The position numbers were made by a program, and so were the translations under genes. Positions 1 through 5,559 of a DNA stretch of 52,504 nt are shown here, piece by piece; position 1 is the first letter of the stretch, and every line of letters starts with the position of its first letter. The notes beneath the pieces are model-generated. The model worked only from the letters and a program-made list of their open reading frames with translations. It had not been told where the DNA came from and searched no databases. This stretch comes from Syntrophaceae bacterium (lineage in GTDB: Bacteria > Desulfobacterota > BSN033 > UBA1163): positions 1 through 52,504 of the forward strand of contig JACAEV010000052.1 of NCBI GenBank assembly GCA_013388645.1, written 5' to 3'.

Positions 1-107
1 TCCTTTGGAATGGGCAATTCTCTTAAAATTTGATCCAGATCCTCCGGACCAATTTTGGCCGCTCAACCTGCTTTTTTCACTTTTTCGGTCAGACGCACTT
101 TTTCCAT
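1..107 (-). CDS. selD: Selenide, water dikinase (SelD), selenocysteine form; 5' part only, cut by the left edge
   Basis: Read on the minus strand from the ATG at 107, the frame gives MEKVRLTEKVKKAG, then TGA at 65-63, then AAKIGPEDLDQIL and on to the window edge. This is the N-terminus of SelD, which makes selenophosphate from selenide and ATP. In the family the position after 'AG' is the catalytic Cys or Sec, so the TGA is read here as selenocysteine 15, not stop. An AGAGGT ribosome site lies about 5 bases before the ATG. The gene follows eight same-strand selenium genes, as expected for the end of that operon. A gene caller would stop at the TGA or start after it. The rest of the protein (about 300 residues) lies outside the window. 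The identification is strong because motif, recoding signal and context agree. Confidence 0.9.
25..56 (-). promoter_or_regulatory. Probable bacterial SECIS hairpin for the selD UGA codon
   Basis: Starting six bases after the TGA, the minus-strand RNA can fold into a stem with arms at 56-46 and 36-25 and a nine-base loop at 45-37 (GGAGGATCT). The inner seven pairs include one G-U. One bulged A then separates them from four outer A-U pairs. Size and distance from the UGA fit bacterial SECIS elements, which bind SelB inside the coding region. The fold was made by eye and no energy was calculated. Confidence 0.7.
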
Positions 108-200: not shown

Positions 201-482
201 TTAATGTTCATGGGTGACGTCCTCGTCACGAAGGATTTCCTTCTTTTTTTCGAGCCTACCACTTAAATCTTTTATATAACAATCCACAACCGATATTTTA
301 TTTTCTCTAAGAATAAGTAAGGCTTCTGCTTCTGAATCTCCAGATAATTCAATGGCGACTCCACAATCCGAACTGATTTCCCGTGGTACAGGGATGAGAT
401 CAATCTTGATTCCTTTCCCCTTAAGAAATTTTTCAGCTTTCATGACGCGATGGACCGATTCAAATACAAAGACGCACTTCAT
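201..482 (-). CDS. DUF3343 protein, putative selenium/sulfur carrier
   Basis: This 93-residue protein has the DUF3343 pattern: an N-terminal beta strand (KCVFVFES), a helix with paired lysines, and the conserved PREISSDCGVAIEL segment with Cys40. Proteins of this family recur beside YedE, YedF and SelD and are thought to carry or hand over selenium or sulfur on the cysteine, but the reaction is unproven. The C-terminus (about residues 75-93) is a charged tail. It is the penultimate gene of the selenium run, just before selD. No clear ribosome site precedes the ATG at 482, and a palindromic repeat (496-557) sits directly upstream. A second, longer DUF3343 protein lies in the same operon at 3525-4076, so the two may act at different steps. 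Confidence 0.8.
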   Translation of the reverse strand: MKCVFVFESVHRVMKAEKFLKGKGIKIDLIPVPREISSDCGVAIELSGDSEAEALLILRENKISVVDCYIKDLSGRLEKKKEILRDEDVTHEH

Positions 483-609: not shown

Positions 610-1755
610 TCATTTAGCAATCAGTGAAACGGCTTGAAGGGCAACTTTAATCTCCTCTTCGGTGTTGAAAACACTCAACCCAAATCGGATCGTCCCTTCT
701 GGAAAAGTCCCAATGGTATGATGGGCTGCAGGCGCACAGTGAAGTCCTGGACGGCAGAGGATGCCAAATTCTTTCTCTAAACGGAAAGCCCCTTCGGAGG
801 GAGAAAGGTGAGAAAAATTAAAAGAAAGAGTCGCCACTCGATCATTCAAGTTCTCTGGACCATAAAGTTTCAACTGATGAATTTCTTTTAACCCTTCGAT
901 CAGTTTTTGGGTCAGGGTCATCTCGTTCTGACGGATTTTCTCCACTCCTTTTTCTAAGACAAACCGAATGCCAGCAAGAAGTCCGGCAATTCCAACCCCA
1001 TTAGGTGTTCCGCTCTCAAAGCGATCCGGCAAAAAGTCTGGCTGCTGCTCAAATTCAGAACGACTTCCTGTCCCGCCCTGTTTCAGGGGGGTCATTTCTC
1101 TTTCATTAATGCGCTCACCAATCACCAGCCCCCCTGTTCCCTGGGGTCCATAGAGGCTTTTATGCCCAGTGAAAGCTAAAAGATCAATCTTATCCCTTTC
1201 AACATCAATCGAATAAGCGCCAGCTGTTTGGGCGGCATCGACTAAAAAGAGAAGATCATATTCTCTCGCTATTTTCCCCACTTCTCTAACGGGAAGAAGG
1301 GTTCCTGTGACATTCGATGCGTGATTAAGAACAATCATTTTCGTATTCGACTGAATCCTCTTTTCCATTTCTCTCGGGTCTAAAGTCCCGTCTTCAAAAC
1401 ATGGAACGACAGTTACGGCAATCCCCCTTCTCTCCAGATCCCTGAGAGGTCTCATAACAGAATTATGTTCCATACTACTTGTAAGAACATGATCTTTGTA
1501 TTTCAGGAGACCTTTTAAGGCCAAATTGATGGATTCCGTAGCATTTAGCGTAAAGACCACTCTGGATGAGTCTTTGACATGGAATAAGGTGGTAAGGGCC
1601 TCCCGAGCTTCATAGATAATCCGAGCGGCTTCAATTGAGAGAGCGTGCCCGGATCGGCCTGGGTTGGCGCCAACCTCCTCCATAAACTTATTCATTGCCT
1701 CTTTCACTTGAGGAGGTTTTGGCCAGGAAGTGGCTGGATTATCAAAGTAAATCAT
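610..1755 (-). CDS. Cysteine desulfurase family protein (class V aminotransferase, selenium-cluster type)
   Basis: This is a PLP enzyme of the NifS/SufS fold, 381 residues from the ATG at 1755. It opens with MIYFDNPATSWPKP and carries the nucleotide-binding MEHNSV segment. The aspartate in LVDAAQ stacks on PLP, and Lys199 in FTGHKSLYGP forms the Schiff base. Candidate catalytic cysteines are Cys334 and Cys340 in GILCRPGLHC. It resembles the desulfurase subfamily that travels with selenium genes (the EF2568-like group). It may release selenide from selenocysteine, or persulfide, for YedF/TusA and SelD. An upstream in-frame ATG at 1848 would overlap yedF and add 31 residues with no homology, so I chose 1755, although the spacing of GAAGGAA to that ATG is short. 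The substrate (Sec or Cys) cannot be read from sequence. Confidence 0.88.
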   Translation of the reverse strand: MIYFDNPATSWPKPPQVKEAMNKFMEEVGANPGRSGHALSIEAARIIYEAREALTTLFHVKDSSRVVFTLNATESINLALKGLLKYKDHVLTSSMEHNSVMRPLRDLERRGIAVTVVPCFEDGTLDPREMEKRIQSNTKMIVLNHASNVTGTLLPVREVGKIAREYDLLFLVDAAQTAGAYSIDVERDKIDLLAFTGHKSLYGPQGTGGLVIGERINEREMTPLKQGGTGSRSEFEQQPDFLPDRFESGTPNGVGIAGLLAGIRFVLEKGVEKIRQNEMTLTQKLIEGLKEIHQLKLYGPENLNDRVATLSFNFSHLSPSEGAFRLEKEFGILCRPGLHCAPAAHHTIGTFPEGTIRFGLSVFNTEEEIKVALQAVSLIAK

Positions 1756-1798
1756 TTCCTTCACTTTATTCGTATTCCATCTCACTGTCAACTGAGTT

Positions 1799-2380
1799 TC
1801 ATGGCTTGACCAAACGGTCCGCCTCAAGTAAAGACTGGGCAATATCATACATATTGGAAATGATCCCGATTCTCAGTTTTTCCTTAAGGCCGTAAAAATC
1901 CAAACACGTCCCGCAAGAAAGGATCTCGACACCTTTTTCGGATAAGGCTCTTAGAGATTCGAGAACCTCAGAACCTTCCGTGGTCAACCGAACTCCGGAA
2001 TTGGCAAAGATCAACTTCGAAGGAATCGGTTTTAAATCCAAAAGGGTCTTAAGAAACGACCTCATGAGGATTGCCCCTAATGCTTCCTCACCAACCCCAA
2101 AAAGATTAGAACCAATGTAGACGACCACCTTTTCGGGTTTTTGAATGGCTCCTGGCAAATCGCAGGCGCCTTTTTTCTGGATATGGAGAAAGAAGTCGTT
2201 TCCTTTCTGTTCAACATTCACGGTTGCCCCCTGACTCTGGGCAAATCGCCCCACATTGTCACGCGCCGAAGGATTATCCACGATCACCATCAACTCTCCC
2301 TGTTCCATCTCCTCCAATGATTTTTTGGTGGTGATCACTGGTTGCGGACACGCCAATCCCCTACAATCAATCTCTTTCAT
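1799..2380 (-). CDS. yedF: YedF: TusA domain fused to DsrE-like domain, selenium metabolism
   Basis: The 193-residue protein starts at the ATG at 2380, which has AAGGAGAG six bases upstream. Residues 1-75 are a TusA-like domain with DCRGLACPQPV, where Cys11 of the CPxP motif is the conserved sulfur/selenium-carrying residue. Residues about 95-193 are a DsrE/DsrF-like domain with a second cysteine pair in EILSCGTCLDFYG. This two-domain layout is that of YedF, a marker of selenium-using bacteria that nearly always occurs with YedE. It probably passes selenium from the transporter or the desulfurase to SelD. A longer frame from 2416 adds 12 residues without homology. It sits 43 bases before the desulfurase gene. 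Confidence 0.9.
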   Translation of the reverse strand: MKEIDCRGLACPQPVITTKKSLEEMEQGELMVIVDNPSARDNVGRFAQSQGATVNVEQKGNDFFLHIQKKGACDLPGAIQKPEKVVVYIGSNLFGVGEEALGAILMRSFLKTLLDLKPIPSKLIFANSGVRLTTEGSEVLESLRALSEKGVEILSCGTCLDFYGLKEKLRIGIISNMYDIAQSLLEADRLVKP

Positions 2381-2452: not shown

Positions 2453-2665
2453 TCAGAGCGAAATGGCATCTTCTAAATCCAAAAGGAATTGGTCGAGATT
2501 CAAGCGATATTTCGTGGCCACATCTCCAATTGTTTCAAAAAGAGCCTGGCAACAGATACAGACACCGGCTTGTTCATCGTATTTTTTGAAAACAGATTCG
2601 GTAGTTCGATAACGGTCGATCACCTCCAGAACGGTCATATTCGGGGTAATGCGACGATCTTTCAT
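2453..2665 (-). CDS. Small DUF1858-like protein with a CxCC motif
   Basis: This 70-residue protein begins MKDRRITPNMTVLEVIDRY, the typical start of the DUF1858 (hybrid-cluster-protein disulfide-type) fold, followed by VFKKYDEQAGVCICCQALFETI. In DUF1858 the central motif is usually CxxC. Here it is C-I-C-C, three cysteines in four positions, which could bind a metal or carry a persulfide or perselenide. The rest is helical. Its ATG overlaps the stop of the kinase-fold gene by 4 bases (ATGA), so the two are probably translationally coupled. A selenium role is inferred from position only. Confidence 0.7.
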   Translation of the reverse strand: MKDRRITPNMTVLEVIDRYRTTESVFKKYDEQAGVCICCQALFETIGDVATKYRLNLDQFLLDLEDAISL

Positions 2666-3537
2666 TGAATCAACTCTCTTCGTCCTTTCAATATCTCCTC
2701 AAGAGCTTTGGGGAGATGTGGTATAATTTCGCTTACCTGAGTCCCGGGAGACGGTTGGGCATAAGATCCAGCAAGTCTATTAACCCGGGCAGCCACAATC
2801 GCCGCCTGACGCAATTCCATGCCTGAGGAAATAAGTGCCGCTACGATCCCGGTCAGTGTATCTCCGGTCCCTCCGATTGCCTCCATGGCCTCTTCCATAG
2901 GATGATCGATAATGGCCTGAACTCCATTCCTATCCGCGAAGTAATCCTTCCTCCCTTTGACCAGAAGATATCGGGCGGCATTTCCGTGTTGATAGGCTCT
3001 CGCAATCAAATCAGGGGCGCGATTTTCTTCGTGCAGAAGAAACCCTCTTGTGTAAAAAGGGTGGGGAGCTAATTCATCAGCAAGAAAAGCAAGCTCTCCC
3101 ATATCCGGCGTAAAGAGGTCGTAGGCACTGGATCGTCCGCTCATCTTAGCCACGTACATGAATCCAGCATCTGCAACGAGATTCGGCTTTGGAGTTAGTT
3201 TCTCAATGACAGATTGAATCCTGCTGTGCCATCCGATATGGGGCTGAAGATAATGAAAGACAAGGGTGTGAAAATTTTTCTGCTTTAGATCTTTGACGAG
3301 ATATTGATACAATTTCTGACTACCATCCCCACTGCCAATATCTCCTATCAGATAGCCAAAGGGCTCTTCCTGGCTCAAGGCTTCCCCCATTTTAATAGCA
3401 GCGGCCAATAACGCCGGAGTCCCCCTTTTTACGGTAACCCTTCTCCCCTGAATACAAATATCTCCATTTTCGAGAGTCGCTATCCCTGCCACCATGGGAA
3501 ACTCCGGGTTCGGCACCGTACCGACTACGGCAAGCAT
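2662..3537 (-). CDS. NnrD/YjeF C-terminal-like (ribokinase fold) protein in the selenium operon
   Basis: The 291-residue protein has two landmarks of the ADP/ATP-dependent NAD(P)H-hydrate dehydratase family: LFTPDMGELAFL near residue 141 (family TPHPGE) and GGTGDTLTGIVAAL at 222-235, where Asp226 is the likely catalytic base. An early GDIGSGDG segment (65-72) is also present. NnrD repairs hydrated NAD(P)H, but nothing here ties that to selenium, so this may be a paralogue with a different substrate. The ATG at 3537 overlaps the preceding gene by 13 bases and has GAGGAG about ten bases upstream. Hydroxyethylthiazole kinase or another small-molecule kinase is possible. Fold assignment is good and substrate is unknown. 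Confidence 0.7.
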   Translation of the reverse strand: MLAVVGTVPNPEFPMVAGIATLENGDICIQGRRVTVKRGTPALLAAAIKMGEALSQEEPFGYLIGDIGSGDGSQKLYQYLVKDLKQKNFHTLVFHYLQPHIGWHSRIQSVIEKLTPKPNLVADAGFMYVAKMSGRSSAYDLFTPDMGELAFLADELAPHPFYTRGFLLHEENRAPDLIARAYQHGNAARYLLVKGRKDYFADRNGVQAIIDHPMEEAMEAIGGTGDTLTGIVAALISSGMELRQAAIVAARVNRLAGSYAQPSPGTQVSEIIPHLPKALEEILKGRRELIQ

Positions 3538-4076
3538 CTGCGTTTCATCTCCTCATAAGCCAACTGAAGGGCATAGCCACAGAGGGTGTGGCCGATTTCA
3601 CGGGGACTCGGAGCTTCTTTCAGACCCTTGCCCACCATCTGCTCTGCCAGATAAGGGACATCCGGACATCCACCACCGGATATATTGACGATGGTCAGGG
3701 ATTCTTTTTCAACCGTCAGTTTCATGTTGGCCGCCTGCACCATCAGATATCTCCCAAAGTCTTTTATCTGAAACAGATCGACAGGCTCCAGCAAAGGGCT
3801 GGATACAGGGACTGCTTGAAGCGGTGGAATCCCTGCATCCTGCAAGGTTTTTGTGATCTTCAACTCCTCAATCAAAGGAAATTCAATGACGAGATCACAA
3901 CCACTCCGTATCTCGGGTGGCGGCCCCATCACCTTGACCTCCCAGCCCTTCTTTTTGAGTAGATTTTCGGCCTGAATGACCTCACTCGTGTTTTCAAATA
4001 CCAGGAATCCACGATCCCCGTTATTATTCTCGGTTATTTCCAGTGATTTCTTTTTTAGAAACCCAAAAGCTCCCAT
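3525..4076 (-). CDS. Two-domain DUF3343 protein, putative selenium carrier
   Basis: Residues about 20-85 repeat the DUF3343 pattern of the gene at 201-482: GFLVFENTSEVIQAENLLKK, then GPPPEIRSGCDLVIEF with the conserved cysteine. Residues about 95-183 form an extra domain with NISGGGCPDVPYLAEQM and GHTLCGYALQLAYEEM, which I do not recognise. The second cysteine in GGGCPD follows a glycine-rich turn and could be reactive. The gene starts 2 bases after the tusA-like stop and overlaps the next gene, so it is tightly coupled in the operon. A role in delivering selenium is inferred from the domain and the neighbours. Confidence 0.75.
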   Translation of the reverse strand: MGAFGFLKKKSLEITENNNGDRGFLVFENTSEVIQAENLLKKKGWEVKVMGPPPEIRSGCDLVIEFPLIEELKITKTLQDAGIPPLQAVPVSSPLLEPVDLFQIKDFGRYLMVQAANMKLTVEKESLTIVNISGGGCPDVPYLAEQMVGKGLKEAPSPREIGHTLCGYALQLAYEEMKRRCLP

Positions 4077-4464: not shown

Positions 4465-5559
4465 TTAAGCGACTTCCTTTCTCATCGTGAACCCAATAAA
4501 CAAACAGGCCAGAAGCCCAATAATCACAGCAGGAATCCCATAGGGTCCAACTCCATCTGGAGAACTGGCAAGACCGAAATTGTGCGAAATACCAGCTCCC
4601 ACGATCATTCCGAGTACGAATACTGCAGCATCCCCATCGCCTTCTCCAGCGAGGAAGAGCTGTCGCCCCGGACATCCACCTGCCAGAGCAAAGGCTAATC
4701 CTGCCAACACCATCCCGCCGAAGTTCCAGAGGCTCATGGTGTGAGCCACGGGCTGTTTGGCAAAACCTGGATTAAACTGTCCCAAGATTAGATTGACAAT
4801 GAAAGCAACCACGACAAGGGTAATAAACCCCAAAAGAAGATGGGCCTGCTTGAAAAGGACAAAATCCCGAATTGCCCCCATAGTGCAAAACCGACTTCTC
4901 TGTGCCAGGAATCCAATCAGGAGACCAATCACCAGCGATACGATGAGAGGTGCGTGCATGGAACCTGGACCTTTGACGCTATAAAATAACACTCCGCTTT
5001 TTTCCTGACCCTGAACCTGTGGAAAGATCAACATTAGAACAAGAAAGCCGAGCATAATTAATGGTAATAACCATCCAACTGAGGTGTGAGTTTTTTGAGT
5101 CCTTCCAAGGTTGTAACCACCTTTCAGGAAGAGTGTGCCCACCCATATCCCTCCAATCAGTCCAAGCAGGCCAAAGATGGCATTGCCGTCACCACCGGCC
5201 AAACGGAGCACAGCCCGCCATGGGCAGCCCAAAAAGACCAGGGCTCCGATCATGGCAAAAGCGCCGAGGACAAATCGAACAATGGGAGCAGACCCCACTC
5301 TTGCGCGAAATTCCCTAAAGGCATAGGCGGCAATCAGTGAGCCAAGGACAAAGCCAATGATCTCCGGTCGTATGTACTGGACAACAGCCGCTCGATGAAG
5401 TCCCAGAGCGCCTGCCATGTCCCTCTCGAAACAGGCGACACAGATGCCCATGTTCGCCGGATTTCCCCATTTCTGCAAAAGCTGGGCAAAAACCCCGATA
5501 AAAGCCCCCACTGAAATGATTCCCCAACGAGTCGCAAAAAAGTTTTTAATGGTTGTCAT
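4465..5559 (-). CDS. yedE: YedE family selenium (YeeE/YedE) membrane transporter
   Basis: The 364-residue integral membrane protein has about ten hydrophobic segments and the repeated YeeE/YedE signature. Conserved cysteine sites are MGICVACFERD (about 37-47), FLGCPWR (about 113), RSRFCTMGAIRD (about 225-236) and AGGCPGRQL (about 298). The double repeat is the pore-forming unit, which in thiosulfate-transporting relatives uses these cysteines for relay through the membrane. The selenium-linked subfamily always occurs with YedF. It is the first gene of the operon, with AAAGGAGG eight bases before the ATG. The substrate (selenite-derived or other selenium compound) is unknown. Confidence 0.92.
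   Translation of the reverse strand: MTTIKNFFATRWGIISVGAFIGVFAQLLQKWGNPANMGICVACFERDMAGALGLHRAAVVQYIRPEIIGFVLGSLIAAYAFREFRARVGSAPIVRFVLGAFAMIGALVFLGCPWRAVLRLAGGDGNAIFGLLGLIGGIWVGTLFLKGGYNLGRTQKTHTSVGWLLPLIMLGFLVLMLIFPQVQGQEKSGVLFYSVKGPGSMHAPLIVSLVIGLLIGFLAQRSRFCTMGAIRDFVLFKQAHLLLGFITLVVVAFIVNLILGQFNPGFAKQPVAHTMSLWNFGGMVLAGLAFALAGGCPGRQLFLAGEGDGDAAVFVLGMIVGAGISHNFGLASSPDGVGPYGIPAVIIGLLACLFIGFTMRKEVA

Follow-up and report, generated by a model that had tools for sequence, protein, structure and literature searches.

The selD start and the neighbouring selenium genes

The analysed window, a stretch of 52,504 nucleotides from a Syntrophaceae genome (250 contigs, 95%-complete), starts at base 1 of its contig (C16) and opens on the minus strand with the 5' part of a selD gene that is interrupted by an in-frame TGA and carries a SECIS-like hairpin directly thereafter; genes of selenium-related protein families are located upstream of it (Table 1). 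Translation of positions 107 to 1 of the minus strand yielded MEKVRLTEKVKKAG, the TGA and AAKIGPEDLDQILRELPIPK, with the ATG at 107 and no other stop up to the contig edge. Re-translation thus showed the selD sequence and the positions of the ATG, the TGA and the subsequent frame to be correct as given in a sequence-only reading of the same DNA. Directly 5' of the ATG, the Shine-Dalgarno-like sequence AGAGGTAA constitutes a plausible ribosome-binding site.

Table 1. Features at the start of the window (positions of the window; all on the minus strand).
Feature	Position	Strand	Remarks
selD, 5' part	1..107	-	codons 1-35, TGA = codon 15, runs off contig end
In-frame TGA	63..65	-	codon 15, read as selenocysteine (predicted); aligned to catalytic Cys of Cys-type SelD
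SECIS-like hairpin	30..52	-	stem 52-43/39-30 (10 bp), loop GGA 42-40
Putative Se/S carrier (PF11823, DUF3343)	201..482	-	directly upstream of selD
Cysteine desulfurase family protein	610..1758	-	TIGR01977, EF2568 type
YedF, sulfurtransferase-like selenium metabolism protein	1799..2380	-	TIGR03527, above cut-off
NAD(P)H-hydrate dehydratase-like protein	2662..3537	-	PF01256; no selenium family name
PF11823 domain protein with C-terminal extension	3525..4076	-	PF11823
YedE, putative selenium transporter	4465..5559	-	TIGR04112, above cut-off

When the TGA was read through, the resulting peptide of 35 residues matched positions 1-26 of the NCBIfam model TIGR00476 (SelD) with E = 1.3e-5; its score of 24.6 bits (cut-off 125) is that of a fragment shortened by the contig end. 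Conserved coding sequence is present on both flanks of the UGA, and the G-(C/U)-x-x-K motif appears as KAG-U15-AA-K18, with the lysine at position +3 of the selenocysteine (Sec). In the alignment, the two loci with Cys-type SelD (L087, L096) read GCAAK and possess a cysteine at the TGA position.

For the cysteine desulfurase, the second-best model was that of the selenocysteine lyase SclA, under its cut-off. The gene order csd, PF11823, selD was kept in the closest relatives (loci L061, L062, L063, L065 and L106); an additional yedF interrupts it in L061. The latter locus belongs to Syntrophaceae UBA2188 (G004, same genus; L035/L061, DCVM01000052.1): in both this genome and the window, the PF11823 gene adjoins selD and the desulfurase gene follows further upstream, whereas YedF is positioned between desulfurase and PF11823 in UBA2188 and before the desulfurase in the window. 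YedE, YedF, DUF3343 and Sec lyase beside selD are selenium genes discussed in the text of Lin et al. 2015 (PMC5322559), and as far as that text describes the cluster, the same protein families are clustered with selD in both cases; in addition, the window cluster contains the NAD(P)H-hydrate dehydratase-like gene and the longer PF11823 protein. Nothing related to a kinase was found in the same text.

The two additional genes (2662-4076) represent a conserved pair of a PF01256 gene and a long PF11823 protein, usually accompanied by a SirA-like gene and YedE; they were adjacent in 25 of the 25 best loci examined, window included. The PF01256-type gene occurred in 45 of 198 genomes of the phylum, 41 of which also contained SelD, a proportion near the background (175/198), and a limited literature text search revealed no paper tying this gene type to selenium. 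Positions 495-563 are occupied by a copy of a dispersed repeat of ~65 bp (GTCATTCCCGCAAAAGCAGGAATCCAG...) that is present at a dozen or more other sites of the genome with 80-93% identity.

The hairpin downstream of the UGA

In the minimum free energy (MFE) form of the window hairpin (-11.9 kcal/mol), the loop starts 20 nt downstream of the TGA; the centroid form reaches about 55-26 and is thus near to the hairpin (25-56) marked just after the TGA in the sequence-only reading. The published constraints for bacterial SECIS elements (bSECIS) comprise a loop of 3-9 nt, a stem of 4-16 bp, a G in the first two loop positions, a distance of 16-37 nt from the UGA and an MFE of <= -7.5 kcal/mol (PMC13188914, Fig. 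2). Applied by hand, all of these limits enclose the window hairpin (GGA, 10 bp, 20 nt, -11.9 kcal/mol). Compared to dinucleotide shuffles, the window hairpin exceeded chance only slightly (z between -1.6 and -2.9). Since the hairpin region is coding, synonymous recodings were used as a further comparison: the window hairpin alone did not differ significantly from its recodings (p = 0.24), while 40 of the 53 Sec-SelD sequences, but neither of the two Cys-SelD sequences, surpassed theirs in fold energy (p<0.05).

Among 33 relatives, 86.4% of the cells of an 8-bp core stem were paired, 16 cells carried a double change and the covariation score amounted to 0.26 (each value reached by 0 of 500 shuffles), and four pairs showed a double change (reached in 26 of 500 shuffles); these shuffle counts are not probabilities because the 33 sequences are related. 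Pairing of the core stem fell to 4.5-52% when the partner was slid by 1 to 3 columns. The clearest covarying pair was the loop-closing one, which is G-C in 17 and A-U in 12 sequences. The hairpin is clearly selected in the relatives; as a real structure that fits the published bSECIS criteria and covaries, it upholds the earlier assignment. SECIS elements in Sec-SelD genes have already been found computationally by others (PMC4561486).

The sequences of Desulfobacterota-type and Dehalococcoidia Sec-SelD exhibited a hairpin loop at 20 nt after the UGA, like the window. The 19 Chloroflexi-type Sec-SelD sequences favoured a more distal hairpin at nt 27-43 past the UGA (loop ~33 nt away), the pairing of which comprised 95.5% of cells in this set versus 42% in the Desulfobacterota/Dehalococcoidia set; as the distal stem hardly varies, it does not provide covariation evidence. 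Loci with the distal hairpin (Anaerolineae-type; region of 45 nt following the TGA) include L071, L076, L077, L082, L088, L089 and others up to L140. It is conceivable, and proposed here tentatively, that the SECIS hairpin within Sec-type SelD has moved between lineages; if so, the element would have been relocated inside one gene family with the recoded codon fixed in place.

SelD in relatives and the reading of the TGA

As the window opens at base 1 of its contig, selD is not traceable further, and according to the profile search no other contig of the assembly contained a SelD above the TIGR00476 cut-off, i.e. the assembly lacks the remainder of selD. TIGR00476 was matched by five more sequences of the genome, all of which scored below the cut-off and aligned from model position 8 or beyond, a late start shared by the SelD-like paralogues present in every genome. 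One of them, located near a contig start (C216:123-752), was considered as the missing selD part and rejected, having its own separate start. Due to the late model starts and the separate start of C216:123-752, none of the five matches represents the missing part. With 35 codons in the contig and the remainder in no other, we infer an intact selD in the source organism from its relatives.

The first 35 residues of the window SelD were identical (35/35) to those of UBA2188, whose SelD is full length (346 residues, 392 bits versus TIGR00476) and has the TGA at the identical codon, followed by 331 residues, whereas the window gene comprises the first 35 codons. Over 105 DNA positions, six differences separate the two genes; all are synonymous, with two of the affected codons before and four after the TGA; in other relatives, synonymous changes after the TGA were more than or equal to the remaining changes. 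Within the class, SelD above the cut-off was present in 18 of 23 genomes, and the full copies had exactly one internal TGA in 21 of 21 cases. Within the phylum, SelD was found in 175 of 198 genomes; among the matches listed, nearly all possessed one TGA and a few none. All close relatives contained the SelD catalytic core downstream of the position at which the contig ends. The full-length SelD of the closest relatives is in line with the continuation of the frame as SelD past the TGA that the sequence-only reading had named as a check, as it had the presence of selA, selB and selC. Indeed, all three genes were found in the genome: selA (630 bits) and selB (380 bits) by profile search, and selC, the tRNA-Sec gene, with 82.8 bits and the anticodon TCA.

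The rest of selD missing from the assembly would also be expected of a truncated pseudogene in which the TGA is a true stop mutation. However, the contig itself stops at the selD break point, the same TGA was present in every full-length SelD copy of the class, and the differences from the UBA2188 selD were synonymous on both sides of the codon; we regard the pseudogene as very unlikely. A TGC or TGT altered to TGA by sequencing or assembly error is a general concern at contig ends, which are error-prone, but independent genomes share the TGA at this codon, which renders such an error more improbable still. Least probable of the three is a genome-wide reassignment of TGA to another amino acid, for which no supporting point was found: of 28 ORFs inspected in the window, neighbouring genes included, 13 terminate with TGA, so that the code is not reassigned, and a complete Sec machinery is present in the genome. 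A search for additional selenoproteins by read-through across the entire window yielded only frames that looked chance-like as judged by eye.

Probable selenocysteine decoding and comparison with known Sec-SelD

The window edge almost certainly represents the start of a Sec-containing selD that forms the downstream end of a selenium cluster; the metagenome-assembled genome concerned is closely related to UBA2188. Of the earlier proposal of a Sec-type selD making selenophosphate with a selenoenzyme, the gene, the UGA and the selA/selB/selC complement were established, whereas Sec incorporation at codon 15 and SelD enzyme activity are predictions from the sequence. In this assembly, the gene that the sequence-only reading expected to be truncated by automatic annotation is already cut short by the contig edge. 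By analogy with the known bacterial mechanism, SelB and Sec-tRNA(Sec) would bind the hairpin after the UGA and decode the latter as Sec15. The full SelD would use selenide and ATP to generate selenophosphate, with Sec15 replacing the usual catalytic Cys, and this selenophosphate would feed SelA for the synthesis of the Sec needed by SelD itself. A role in selenium supply or trafficking is probable for YedE, the Sec-lyase-type desulfurase, YedF and the PF11823 carriers.

Among the selenoprotein families of prokaryotes, Sec-SelD ranks second in size (PMC13188914); in a reference set, about 19% of the SelD genes code for Sec, the position of which is invariant (PMC4561486), and SelD is listed among the selenoproteins of Syntrophus aciditrophicus (PMC1794560). 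Compared with Sec-SelD (TIGR00476) such as that listed for S. aciditrophicus (PMC1794560), the window gene has its predicted Sec at the identical position, replacing the catalytic Cys, with the lysine three residues on, and both share the SECIS within the coding region just after the UGA as well as the selenium gene neighbours; there was no difference of substance, the window holding the first 35 codons only. As the Sec-SelD frequency (PMC4561486) and the Syntrophus listing (PMC1794560) have already been reported, the Sec-selD of the window is a correct but ordinary finding, a textbook arrangement common to nearly all relatives. It adds a further example of a selenoprotein that is already well described and leaves the general picture unchanged; at the same time, a little-studied organism is confirmed to have the Sec decoding system, in which selenophosphate would be made with a selenoenzyme.

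Two Sec-type SelD genes with ~50% identity were present in each of three genomes from the same family (G005, G008, G010; loci L141/L142, L143/L144, L145/L146): one copy belongs to the window type (RLTxxVKKAGU), the other to a second type (TLTGLSRTCGU). The second-type selD was located among yedF and csd in L141 and L143, and in L143 it also adjoins selB. A profile search of the contigs did not find a second Sec-SelD copy in the window genome. The single-contig genome G020 yielded a SelD match (L149 4925-5173) to model positions 1-83 only, with the TGA present; the frame ends ~105 codons on, as a result of a frameshift or of gene decay. A tandem pair of Sec-type SelD genes was present on one Anaerolineae contig (L097 7438-9159).
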